Shown: positions 19,325-35,751 of the stretch, one piece after another
Layout of the letters: every line of letters starts with the position of its first letter
Position numbering within the stretch: the first letter of the stretch is position 1
Origin: Methanobacteriota archaeon
GTDB taxonomy: Archaea; Thermoplasmatota; Poseidoniia; Poseidoniales; Thalassarchaeaceae
Assembly (NCBI GenBank): GCA_004195615.1
Contig: PSPW01000001.1
Location: 146,881 to 210,880, forward strand
Direction: 5' to 3'
Length of the DNA stretch: 64,000 bases
The notes under the pieces: generated by a model
The model's input: the letters and a program-made list of their open reading frames with translations, nothing else
The model's database searches: none
Told to the model about the DNA's origin: nothing
Position numbers and translations under genes: made by a program

Positions 19325-21727
19325 GTGAGCAGCATGCCCGAAGAAATCTTGGTCGATAATGAGACTTGGGGCACACGTGAGCTTCTAGAAGTGATTACCT
19401 CAAGATTCTTCGATCTTGGAAGTGAAGGTGCTTATCCGAATTCCTGGGAAGTTCAGGGAATAGATGGCCGAGAAGTGGGAGAACAGTTACTCCAACTCAA
19501 TGTGCACTTGGACCCAATGGGATTAATCGGTTCGCTAGAGGACAGCAATCCTCCAGTAATGACGATTTCAAGAATGCCTTCGGGAAGTTCGGTAATGGAA
19601 GGCTATCAGCAAGTCGTGCTATGGACTGTGATGGCAGCATTCATGACTCTAGTGGGATCGCATTGGGTTTCTGAATACGAATATGAGGGAGAATCCGGAA
19701 TAAGCGAAATCGTCCAGTCATCCCTCTTCTTCACAATTCCAGTGATGCTTTCATTCTTCCTAGCTAGCTATTGCAGAGTATTGGTGGCAAGGAAGTATGG
19801 AATTGAAATCGGCCACATTACTCCGATTGTCTTCCCAATCCCTACTTGGTGGTCATTCGGAATTATTGGAGCTCTGGGGCAGAGGAAACCGGATCTTGTC
19901 CCAATGCCGAATAGACGAGCCTTGGGCTCAATCGAAGTTACAGTACCAATCGTTCTTTTCTTGGCTGGTAACATTCTGACCATTTTGGGACTCATGATGA
20001 CGCCAAGTAACCCTCCCGAACTCACTGCAGCCCCGACAGTCTTCGACACGAGCCTATTCACAGGTTATCTGGTCGAGACTTGGATGGGAAATGAATTGGG
20101 AATTAGACTACAATGGTTGCATCCAATCGGAATTGCTGGAGTTGGCCTTTCCATCGTTGGATGGGGATTAATGCTCCCAATTCCGGGACTTCCTGGAGAT
20201 AGGTTGCTGTACGCAATTATCGGTCCATCCGAGATGAGGAACGGGCGCACACAGACCTCGATTTTCCTTTTGGTTCTCTTTGTTATGGTAGTGGTATTCG
20301 CAACCGCACAGTGGACCCCTTGGATTTTCCTCGCATTTGTAGCTGCATGGCAGAGATTCAATCCAGACAGTCTGCCTCAGCCAATAATCCTAGACGAACA
20401 TATCGGACTGGAAGAGAGATTCAGAAGTCGTTTCGTAGCAATTGCAGCAATCGTTCTGCTGGCAGGATTACCCGGAACTGTTCCTTCGTACGAAATGGAA
20501 GACTACATTGCTGGAATTTCTACCGATGAATGGCCAGAGGAGTTGCATTTCGAAGCAGGGGTCGGAGAGGAGATTCTCCTAATTCTGGAGCCACGGGGGG
20601 TGATGCCAGTATCAGGCTGGCTACAGTTCAGAGTCGAGGGATCGGACCCAGATGATTGGGGACTGAACTACTCGTGTTCAGAGTTTTCTGAAGTATGCAG
20701 ATTCGATGGATTGACGCAGAATAAAATCCTTGAACTACCAATAGTAATCACACCTCCGGAAGAAGATTTTTCCCCTCACTTACTCAAGATACTTGTTGAG
20801 ATCTCTGGCTTCGAGGTGGAACATCTGATAAAACTCTCAAGCCATGACGATGAGGGTTTTGTTGATTCTTATTGGAACCTTACAGGAGACTCAGAAAATC
20901 CGATTATTTGTTCTGAGATGGATGCTGGAGAAGGAGGAGTGCTTTCCATTGAAGGTTCTTACTGGGAACAAATGAATGGTAGCAATCTGAGTTTTGGAGT
21001 GCAGGAAGTGTGCCTCAGGGGTCACGAAGGGGCAATTCAGAACTCTGATTTATTCGACGGCCAAGGGAGGGTTTTTGGCCCAGTGGTTTACTTAATCAGA
21101 GAAAATTCGACGAGCGGGCCTTGGGCAATTCCGATTGATGGTACAGAGCCACTAATCCAGGTCGAGGATGGACTATGGGTAGTTCCGAGTGAATTTGTAG
21201 CAGTAGGAGACGTCTTCTACCACTCAGACTCTGGCTCTCCATTCTGCCCTTCTAGCGATGTGGCGGCTCAAATTAATACGAGTTCGAACTGGTCTGTAGA
21301 GATGGGGAACTACACTGCTATGAGAATCACGGGAAATCTTAGTGGTGAAGGGACGATTGGTATTGGAACAGAGGGATGGCTTGCATTATGTCACAATGAC
21401 GAAACCATGGAGGCATTCAGCATTAAAGAGTCGGTGGATGTCTATGTCCATCCTAATGGATTGTATCGTGGACTTGATGTAGAGGAAATCATGGTCTTCA
21501 ACAGAGCAGCGGGAAGAATGAATCTTGCTGTAGAATGGCATGGCGACTCTCCGCAAAGCGGAATTTGGGAAGTCTCCATCATCGACTGGATTGAATCTGG
21601 TGATAGCACTTCTATTACAGTGAAGGAGGTAGGCCTTTCAAGTCTCGAGAGAGCGGTGTGGATCACGGCGGATGAGTCGGGAATTACGGTTCATCTTTCA
21701 GCGAGATGCCCCTCGGAGGGATGCTGA
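19325..21727 (+). CDS. inactive site-2-protease-like (M50/EGY) membrane protein with large outer domain
   Basis: Residues 90-350 follow the membrane core of EGY-type M50 proteases: where HELGHYLAARRHG is expected the protein has ASYCRVLVARKYG (near residue 148), then PTWWSFGIIGALGQRKPDLVPMPNRRAL matching the family's GTFGAII...PNRKAL, and PIPGLPGDRLLYAIIG in place of PIGQLDGGRILYALLG. All three zinc ligands (two His and the LDG Asp) are lost, so proteolysis is not expected. About 330 residues after the last helix form an extracytoplasmic beta-rich region with paired Cys (CSEFSEVC). The start is GTG at 19325 behind GAGGAGG. The role is unknown. Confidence 0.75.
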   Translation: MSSMPEEILVDNETWGTRELLEVITSRFFDLGSEGAYPNSWEVQGIDGREVGEQLLQLNVHLDPMGLIGSLEDSNPPVMTISRMPSGSSVMEGYQQVVLWTVMAAFMTLVGSHWVSEYEYEGESGISEIVQSSLFFTIPVMLSFFLASYCRVLVARKYGIEIGHITPIVFPIPTWWSFGIIGALGQRKPDLVPMPNRRALGSIEVTVPIVLFLAGNILTILGLMMTPSNPPELTAAPTVFDTSLFTGYLVETWMGNELGIRLQWLHPIGIAGVGLSIVGWGLMLPIPGLPGDRLLYAIIGPSEMRNGRTQTSIFLLVLFVMVVVFATAQWTPWIFLAFVAAWQRFNPDSLPQPIILDEHIGLEERFRSRFVAIAAIVLLAGLPGTVPSYEMEDYIAGISTDEWPEELHFEAGVGEEILLILEPRGVMPVSGWLQFRVEGSDPDDWGLNYSCSEFSEVCRFDGLTQNKILELPIVITPPEEDFSPHLLKILVEISGFEVEHLIKLSSHDDEGFVDSYWNLTGDSENPIICSEMDAGEGGVLSIEGSYWEQMNGSNLSFGVQEVCLRGHEGAIQNSDLFDGQGRVFGPVVYLIRENSTSGPWAIPIDGTEPLIQVEDGLWVVPSEFVAVGDVFYHSDSGSPFCPSSDVAAQINTSSNWSVEMGNYTAMRITGNLSGEGTIGIGTEGWLALCHNDETMEAFSIKESVDVYVHPNGLYRGLDVEEIMVFNRAAGRMNLAVEWHGDSPQSGIWEVSIIDWIESGDSTSITVKEVGLSSLERAVWITADESGITVHLSARCPSEGC

Positions 21728-25760: not shown

Positions 25761-25884
25761 GGCCCCTCCAACAGGCATGATGGCTTGAACGGTGCGGATT
25801 ATGAATGAAAGAATAAAACGAATAGTTGAATAGTCGGCAGGCTTAGCGTTATTCCGTTCTCGTTAATTCGGTAAGGTGAGAGAG

Positions 25885-26271
25885 ATGTTTTGTCCCGAGT
25901 GTGGTTCTCTTTCCTACCCTGATGAGAGAGGTTGGATTAAGTGCCCAGATTACAAATGTAGCTATGAAGGCCCCCTCTCAGGCGAAGATGGAAAAGGTTC
26001 CGAATTTACCGACCCCATGACAGGAAAGACTATCGATCTGTCCAAGACCACCGCCACCACTGATTCAAAGTCTCTGAAGCATCTGACTGAGGTCGTACAA
26101 GAGGATGGGCCTCAGGGAACTCTTAGAGAGGGCGACTATATCTGCCCTAAGTGCAATGAGAGAAATGCTTACGTCCACTTGCAGCAAACTAGATCCTCTG
26201 ACGAACCGGAGACTAAGTTCTGCACTTGCGCAAATCTCGAGTGCAAGCATAGGTGGAGGGAGTACCAGTAG
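25885..26271 (+). CDS. tfs: transcription factor S (TFIIS/RPB9-like)
   Basis: Stimulates transcript cleavage by stalled RNA polymerase. The N-terminal zinc ribbon has CPECGS...CPDYKC; the C-terminal one has CPKCNERNAYVHLQQTRSSDEPET...CTCANLECKHRWREY. It retains the catalytic Asp-Glu pair (SSDEPET) needed for cleavage. The second ribbon has a slightly enlarged last knuckle (CTCANLEC). A GTG at 25876 is in frame, but AAGGTGAG there acts as ribosome-binding site for ATG 25885. Confidence 0.93.
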   Translation: MFCPECGSLSYPDERGWIKCPDYKCSYEGPLSGEDGKGSEFTDPMTGKTIDLSKTTATTDSKSLKHLTEVVQEDGPQGTLREGDYICPKCNERNAYVHLQQTRSSDEPETKFCTCANLECKHRWREYQ

Positions 26272-32160: not shown

Positions 32161-32682
32161 TCACGCCAACGCGCCTTCTTCGGACAATTTCGAGATCCAA
32201 TATGAGACTGCCATTTCAGCGACCTTTCGAGATGACTGGCCCGACACAATTCCTTTGCCGTTGTTGAAAAGAAGGATTGTACAGTTATGCCTCTTTGCTG
32301 TGATTCGGAGTGCATCTAGCCTGAGGTCGTGTTCTGCATCCTTGAATCGTTCTGCTGCCAGACTGATTAATACAGCTCTTCCAATAGAGAAACTGGCAAG
32401 AACCTCTCCCATTTCTACTACAAGTCCCTTTTCGGAGATGCCGATACTGAGAAGAGTCTCCTCAGCGATTAACGAGGCTGCTTCGTGGTTGGAAATTCCA
32501 TGAATCAGTAATGACCCATCTGTGTCGACGACAATGAGGGCTCTGGGTTCCTCGTGCTCAATTACTGCGAATGCCCCGTTGCTCCTCGCTCCTGCTAATC
32601 TCACGGCATCTGCTAATATGATCGGTTCGGAAGGAATTACTCGGAATGACTGAGTCTCAATATTGATTTCAGAACCGCTCAT
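32161..32682 (-). CDS. divergent TATA-binding-protein-like protein
   Basis: At 173 residues it has the size of archaeal TBP and shows two repeats. In the second, VLASFSIGRAVLISLAAERF...DAEHDLRLDALRI...CTILLFNNGKGIVSGQSSRKVAEMAV follows the TBP pattern VASFDLG..IDL..LA..L.NAEY.PE.FPGL...LIFSSGKIV.TGAKS..EA..AV. The first repeat keeps ALIVVDTDGSLLIHGISNHEAASLI. The FPGL element is lost and only one of the four DNA-bending Phe positions (ILLF) remains, so TATA binding is doubtful. Located between a TatD-like hydrolase and a hypothetical gene, with which it overlaps by four bases. Confidence 0.6.
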   Translation of the reverse strand: MSGSEINIETQSFRVIPSEPIILADAVRLAGARSNGAFAVIEHEEPRALIVVDTDGSLLIHGISNHEAASLIAEETLLSIGISEKGLVVEMGEVLASFSIGRAVLISLAAERFKDAEHDLRLDALRITAKRHNCTILLFNNGKGIVSGQSSRKVAEMAVSYWISKLSEEGALA

Positions 32683-34131: not shown

Positions 34132-35751
34132 ATGGGATTGGCCGAGCCTAATGGCTCGACTGAGAAGAGACAGGCCGAGTTAATCGGCGGTCTCTATTTG
34201 GTCGGAGCGAGAGGGAAGTATTGTGCAGTAATTACTGAGCAACAGCTTACCATAGAAAGGTTCGATGGAAAGGGCATCAGACTTAATTTGGCTGCCATCG
34301 AGAGAATGAGGCATCTCAAGATCCCTATGCTCCCATCGGGCACAGTTATTCTAGGGATTATTTCGATTTACCTGGGAATAACAACCATATTTGCACCAAT
34401 GAGTTGGTTGGCAGTTGGACTAGGAACATCCGTAATTATTGCGAACATAGTTTCTCGTTATTCTATCCTAGCTATAGAAACTGGTTCTGGTGACAGGCAC
34501 CTAGTTTCTGGCAGTGAGGCAACTCTTCTGAAATTATGTCTGATTGTTGATAGAGTAAGGCATGGTAGCGATATGCAAGAGGCTTTGCTGGGTCTGGAGG
34601 ATCTAGAATCCGAACTTCCAACTTTCCCGGCACTCAGAGATGTAACTGGGCAGTTGGGGCAGGCTCCTTTAGCTGCACTCCCGATCACGATTCAAACAAA
34701 CGCAATAGTCAATAAAGAGCAAAGTAACGAGTCAAATCTAGGAATCCGATCAGATTATGATTTGAATATATTCGGCCCTCCATTATCGCCAGAAACTCCC
34801 GAATTGGTGAAGGAAGGGAGTAATGGGGAAGGGGTGTCTGTTCCTAATTCATCCAAGCAGAATGCATACGAGAGAGCATGGGGGGTGCAAGAGGCACCCA
34901 GTTGGTACAAGGAGAAGGAGTCTGATTCAAACGGGAGCACTAGGATTGATTCTGCTTTCTCTGATGCCGCAGAGGGTCTAGACATGTTCTCCCCGGGTGG
35001 ACTATTCGACTCGAATTCAGTCTCAGAAGCCTCCAATACAAAAGACATGGGCCTTTTCGATTTTGAGTTCAACCCTCCTCCAGAACCAGTTGAGAGAACA
35101 CATTCGAGTGCTCAGATGATTAAGCAAGCACATCAAGAATTTGGGGCTCCGACTGAGCCGTTCTTGAATTCCTTGCTACCCCCCCCTACTGAAGAGGCAG
35201 TTAGGGAAGAGTGTAAAGCAGGAGTAGTTAGACAAGCAAAGGCGAAGCAAGAGTTAAGGTCGCAGAGTTTGGATAAACTGAGAGGGATGCCGGCTGCAAA
35301 TTTGGATGACTATCCTGCCTTGAAGGGGCTTGCCTCTACTATGTCTGGAAGCAGGTCGTCTGGTGTGAAGTCGAAAGTTGCGGTATCGGGAGGATGGCTA
35401 TCGCGTCTTTTGGGACCGGGTAGATCCATCGATAGGAGTAAGGGTGGGGATTCAGATTCAACTAATGAGATAGAAACTGAGAGATTCCAGACCACCCAAC
35501 ACATGAGACTGAGGAGTGACCAAGACCACCAGGCAGATGTTAGTTCTCGTTTGAGAGAAATGAGGAAAATCAATCATGCCTCCACTGCTCGGGACAAGCT
35601 CGATTCAATTGTCAGGAGTCTTTCGGGAGAAGAAGAAGCCACCTCCTGTCTACTCGATGGGTCAAATGATTCATTGAGGTTTAATCAACTAAAACCGACC
35701 TCTTCTAAGGAAGATCCACATCCTCTCCCAGGACTCAGAAGATTGGGATGA
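34132..35751 (+). CDS. membrane-anchored protein with long disordered tail, unknown
   Basis: The first 45 residues (GGLYLVGARGKYCAVITEQQLTIERFDG) look like a small PH-like beta domain, split by two membrane helices at about residues 63-103 (TVILGIISIYLGITTIFAP and SWLAVGLGTSVIIANIV). From residue 150 onward the protein is polar and rich in Ser, Glu, Pro and Asp, probably disordered, with a Pro cluster LLPPPTEEA. No catalytic motif. It ends one base before the stop of the converging PfkB kinase. Confidence 0.7.
   Translation: MGLAEPNGSTEKRQAELIGGLYLVGARGKYCAVITEQQLTIERFDGKGIRLNLAAIERMRHLKIPMLPSGTVILGIISIYLGITTIFAPMSWLAVGLGTSVIIANIVSRYSILAIETGSGDRHLVSGSEATLLKLCLIVDRVRHGSDMQEALLGLEDLESELPTFPALRDVTGQLGQAPLAALPITIQTNAIVNKEQSNESNLGIRSDYDLNIFGPPLSPETPELVKEGSNGEGVSVPNSSKQNAYERAWGVQEAPSWYKEKESDSNGSTRIDSAFSDAAEGLDMFSPGGLFDSNSVSEASNTKDMGLFDFEFNPPPEPVERTHSSAQMIKQAHQEFGAPTEPFLNSLLPPPTEEAVREECKAGVVRQAKAKQELRSQSLDKLRGMPAANLDDYPALKGLASTMSGSRSSGVKSKVAVSGGWLSRLLGPGRSIDRSKGGDSDSTNEIETERFQTTQHMRLRSDQDHQADVSSRLREMRKINHASTARDKLDSIVRSLSGEEEATSCLLDGSNDSLRFNQLKPTSSKEDPHPLPGLRRLG

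Follow-up and report, generated by a model that had tools for sequence, protein, structure and literature searches.

Few proteins of archaea and eukaryotes are conserved as highly as TBP, and the Poseidoniales belong to the archaeal groups that are most abundant in the surface ocean. In bacterial RNase HIII, a single TBP lobe is fused to a nuclease; the Poseidoniales protein described here differs from that arrangement in being a two-lobed, stand-alone TBP paralogue. The RNase HIII lobe is a case in which the TBP fold is reused outside promoter recognition (PMC4132731). In a wide-ranging study of how TBP evolved (PMC7221094), the animal TBP-related factor TBPL1 (TRF2) is reported to carry Trp in place of Phe at position L5.1 of the N-terminal lobe (N-lobe), and bacterial TBP lobes to carry Tyr or His at L5.1. 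The Poseidoniales protein resembles TBPL1 as a TBP paralogue with an altered N-lobe L5.1, but it is archaeal, it has Asp or Glu at this position and most of its groove changed, and its gene shares an operon with TraB-like and TatD-like genes. With archaeal TBPs (PF00352; 1mp9, 1pcz and 1ais) it shares a predicted two-lobe saddle, the same order of strands and helices, and homology over both lobes. It differs from them in the residues that grip DNA, and a canonical TBP is encoded elsewhere in the genome. No description of this TBP-like family was found in the open-access papers on TBP evolution and Poseidoniales that were searched, and the Poseidoniales genome paper PMC6461757 makes no mention of TBP.

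Identity, predicted fold and distribution

The window, that is the whole stretch of 64,000 nucleotides that was analysed, contains an open reading frame with an ATG start and exact boundaries (Table 1), the product of which had been likened to TBP in the preliminary description on the basis of its length and two repeats. This identification was borne out by sequence profiles and by the predicted structure. The Pfam TBP model (PF00352) matched the 173-aa protein with an E value of 2.4e-6 and a score of 27.7 bits, the gathering cut-off being 22.9; scores against the NCBIfam TBP models were far under their cut-offs. A phmmer search of the PDB with the single sequence recovered archaeal TBPs at an E value of 5e-4 with both repeats covered, and a profile of the 41-member family matched solved TBPs at 1.6e-9 over both lobes. 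The homology of the protein to TBP is far beyond chance. The AF2 model (mean pLDDT 93.2) has strands and helices in the order of two TBP lobes, and the top 44 Foldseek matches in the PDB were TBPs or TBP fusions, headed by the archaeal TBP 1mp9 (E 4.3e-12, TM 0.88, 178 columns, both lobes). What was predicted is the TBP saddle and not some other fold; the saddle is the best-supported fold of the protein, although the orientation of one lobe relative to the other is predicted with less certainty (pTM 0.73).

Table 1. Features of the TBP-like locus, with positions in the window
Feature	Position	Strand	Details	Basis
TBP-like paralogue, 173 aa	32161..32682	-	N-lobe ~residues 1-86, C-lobe ~87-173	Pfam, profile, AF2, Foldseek
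N-lobe	32425..32682	-	FPG stirrup loop deleted; Phe60 equivalent is Asp53; invariant His61 replaces minor-groove Thr	
C-lobe	32164..32424	-	FPG replaced by LDA; retained aromatic is Phe139; invariant Gly92 and Gly142	
ATGA overlap of upstream stop and TBP-like start codons	32679..32682	-		
Upstream partner gene, 264 aa	32679..33473	-	Probable TraB/PrgY/GumN-like fold without the TraB active-site histidines	Model, fold search
TatD-related metal-dependent hydrolase, 294 aa	31272..32156	-	Starts 4 bp past the TBP-like stop codon	

A canonical tbp gene, for which a search elsewhere in the genome had been proposed, was found in the same assembly at L001:388-1746 (-) (G000:C11, about 20050-21410), with two strong repeats scoring 86 and 83 bits. 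The pattern of one strong canonical TBP and one weak paralogue was repeated across 60 relatives, nearly all of which have the canonical protein. The TBP-like paralogue is not the main or only TBP of its genome.

Some further features of the canonical factors were recorded. The canonical TBP at L001:388-1746 (-) has an insert of >200 aa in its inter-lobe linker, which most relatives do not have and part of which resembles virion and tail-fibre proteins of phages (PHROG families, best E 2.2e-9); a related, longer insert occupies the same TBP position in a genome of another genus (L186, G028). All canonical Poseidoniales TBPs examined (L074-L103) carry a C-lobe insertion of ~20-55 aa at the junction of the first strand and first helix. 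Two divergent TFB paralogues (G000:C33:4922-5437 and G000:C7:1645-2157) are present beside the canonical TFB on C16, and one such divergent TFB was seen in nine of 10 sampled genomes of the order's other family. Divergent TFB paralogues were not found in some genomes that have the TBP-like paralogue.

The TBP-like paralogue is single-copy and was detected in 55 of 60 relatives and in all 22 near-complete relatives, with no member outside the order Poseidoniales (Marine Group II) among 293 genomes of the phylum. Weaker matches from outside the order (best E 3.8e-9) were rejected as family members, as they look like ordinary TBPs; those inspected have FPG, or at least its Phe, in one lobe or both. 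A viral origin was also rejected, a pattern scan of viral contigs having revealed no relative of the TBP-like or upstream protein and there being no PHROG match. In a phylogenetic tree, the TBP-like family forms one clade on a long stem. Given that the family occupies the same operon in both Poseidoniales families, it is older than the split between them, and the best reading is that of an ancient paralogue. Among near relatives, dN/dS values of 0.01-0.10 indicate strong purifying selection on the gene. The weak single-sequence scores, such as the phmmer value above, might be taken to reflect a decaying or chance reading frame with an accidental resemblance to TBP, but conservation across the order, the low dN/dS and the strength of the fold match already refute this explanation, the probability of which is negligible.

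Remodelling of the DNA-contacting face

The 41 family members were aligned with Pyrococcus TBP (Pw numbering) and with the canonical TBPs of the same organisms, and the positions touching DNA were taken to be those of known TBP-DNA structures. The loss of FPGL and of three of four Phe residues, noted in the preliminary description, was confirmed by this mapping and extends to the family. The N-lobe FPG loop, including Phe43, is deleted in 41/41 members; the second N-lobe Phe (Phe60) is Asp or Glu in 40/41; and the Phe of the C-lobe FPG (Phe134) is Leu, Ile or Val in all 41, being Leu in the protein described here. The last intercalating position (Phe151) is aromatic in every member (25 Phe, 15 Trp and 1 Tyr). 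Phe is thus found at the four intercalating positions in 0, 0, 0 and 61% of members, respectively, whereas the canonical TBPs of the same organisms have all four.

The rest of the groove is also changed. Asn occurs at the first position of the central minor-groove Asn pair in 46% of members and at the second in 0%; Asn104 is lost, Thr68 is replaced by His and Gln103 by Gly in all members. Across 18 minor-groove positions, the canonical residue is present in a mean of 24% of members, compared with 100% in canonical Poseidoniales TBPs, and the corresponding values for retention of phosphate-contacting Arg/Lys are 34 and 100%. Pw49 and Pw140 have lost their basic residues, and Pw155 is Arg or Lys in 36/41 members (88%). 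The C-lobe stirrup is shortened, with loss of its Pro and FPG, and the mean net charge of the TBP-like proteins is about -5.5. With regard to TFB, the contacting glutamates C.L3.2 and C.L3.4 of PMC7221094 were taken as Pw130 and Pw132; these are Asp in 39/41 and Glu in 16/41 members, respectively, with the intervening Pro deleted and the alignment uncertain around the gap.

Conservation is higher at the concave positions than elsewhere in the protein (entropy 1.20 versus 1.67 bits, p 0.03). A groove that is conserved above its surroundings points to a new ligand rather than to decay, and the combination of remodelling and conservation in the aligned sequences suggests that the concave face has acquired one. 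The C-lobe aromatic (100% Phe, Trp or Tyr) and the largely basic Pw155 leave room for some contact with nucleic acid.

The operon and its other genes

The 4-bp ATGA overlap with the upstream gene is representative of a tight arrangement: the upstream and TBP-like genes are adjacent in every intact locus, either overlapping or 1-14 bp apart. The order of the trio (upstream, TBP-like, TatD-type) is kept in both Poseidoniales families in differing surroundings. An in-frame fusion of the upstream and TBP-like genes in G005 (L023:745-1941) looks like the result of a ~116-bp deletion by which the TBP-like protein has lost its first 34 residues; this single case, possibly an assembly artefact, was left out of the evidence. 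The upstream gene was present in 81 of 82 sampled genomes of the order, a distribution that is the same as that of the TBP-like gene, and had no clear match among the genomes searched outside the order, save one marginal fragment. The sole genome with the upstream gene and no TBP-like match is G056, in which the gene lies 93 bp from a contig end. Mirror-tree comparison of the trio gave a weak partial co-evolution signal (partial r 0.51 in one small set and 0.27 in another), similar to that of neighbouring genes.

The gene had been placed in a non-transcription neighborhood, a description that holds for the operon itself but not for the wider region, where genes for TFS-like (25876-26271), PCNA-like and Nop5-like proteins lie 5-8 kb away; TFS is a transcription factor, and the PCNA-like gene was recognized by reading its translation. 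At 34132-35751 (+), the window encodes a 539-aa protein with no Pfam match above the cut-off, which adjoins the trio in the genus and in some related genera.

Sequence searches of Pfam, NCBIfam and the PDB with the upstream protein gave no family match. The only good Foldseek matches of its model (pLDDT 94.4, pTM 0.92) were to a single Tetrahymena complex IV subunit, represented by three PDB entries and named there as a TraB family protein (7w5z_E), with probabilities of 0.84-0.94, E values of 5e-3 to 1.2e-2 and a TM score of about 0.4. Comparison of an archaeal TraB profile with the upstream family by hhalign was collinear, pairing the upstream PDPE with the TraB PGAE and ERD with ERD (P 0.0042, probability only 8%). 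The GxAH, VEL and GAGH active-site motifs are absent in the 34 upstream members aligned, whereas GTAH and GAGH are nearly invariant in 22 archaeal TraB proteins. Relative to TraB/PrgY/GumN proteins (PF01963), the upstream protein has a predicted fold that is probably similar and collinear motifs, but it is without a Pfam match, has lost GTAH and GAGH and has a much shorter C terminus. It is probably a TraB-fold pseudoenzyme, an assignment that is not secure. A normal TraB is encoded elsewhere in the genome.

The TatD-type product matched PF01026 (E 3.8e-18), and an HxH motif and an ETD near its end are visible in the sequence. In the sister order, a TatD-type gene is present without the pair, beside other genes, which implies that this gene is older than the arrangement and that its link to the pair may be one of co-transcription only. 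In the sister-order loci L176, L178, L179, L181 and L182, it and a gene encoding ~1000 aa, which appears helicase-like by eye, are convergent and overlap by 4 bp.

Proposed function of the TBP-like paralogue

The upstream and TBP-like proteins, which are co-translated and co-distributed, most likely form a complex. The reading towards which we lean, by a modest degree, is that of a neofunctionalised Poseidoniales TBP paralogue whose saddle binds protein within a complex encoded by the operon and which does not act as a TATA-binding, TFB-recruiting promoter factor. Here, the remodelled concave face (His61, Asp/Glu53, Gly92 and the aromatic residue at 139) would bind a protein, and the operon structure suggests that this would most likely be the co-translated TraB-like partner. 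The pair may act as a regulatory or scaffold module away from promoters, with the TatD-type hydrolase of the same operon as a plausible client. The preliminary description had envisaged either a TBP paralogue that has gained a new partner or the use of a TBP fold in another context, and this view gains support from the saddle model, the separate canonical tbp, the order-wide loss of DNA-bending residues and the coupled upstream gene as a candidate partner; that the protein has a new partner, or has ceased to bind DNA, is what we infer from them. In a broader version, the TBP fold, duplicated before the Poseidoniales ancestor, would have become the protein-binding subunit of an order-specific three-protein complex with the pseudo-TraB and the TatD hydrolase, and so a two-lobed cellular TBP wholly out of transcription. 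This is possible, but its chances fall somewhat short of even.

The intact saddle of the predicted structure would also suit a transcription regulator, in which a degenerate TBP pairs with a divergent TFB or antagonises the canonical TBP, either as its dimerisation partner or as a competitor for TFB, an idea comparable to that of the animal TBP-related factors. The order does contain divergent TFB paralogues beside the canonical TFB, and an acidic residue is kept at one TFB-contact position (Asp in 39/41). However, six of eight other congeneric genomes that are >70% complete show the canonical TFB only, yet carry the paralogue; the TFB-touching stirrup of the C-lobe is shorter and has lost its Pro and FPG, the N-lobe groove has gained acidic residues, and the operon partners are non-transcription proteins. 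A regulatory role of this kind is considered unlikely. A similarly low probability is given to a protein that binds nucleic acid mainly through its C-lobe, by analogy with the bacterial RNase HIII lobe on RNA/DNA hybrids, and that might deliver the TatD-type nuclease to its substrate. The C-lobe strand aromatic at L5.1 (PMC7221094), the frequent Arg/Lys at Pw155 and the TatD-type gene directly downstream are consistent with this possibility, but the Asp/Glu and His residues of the N-lobe groove, the missing basic residues at Pw49 and Pw140, the negative net charge and the occurrence of the TatD gene without the paralogue in the sister order argue against it.

For the Poseidoniales, a core transcription factor has seemingly been recycled for another job. 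A TBP paralogue that is strictly maintained across the order without its DNA-gripping residues represents a natural experiment in what the saddle can do without DNA, and its operon partners make the function of the protein directly testable.
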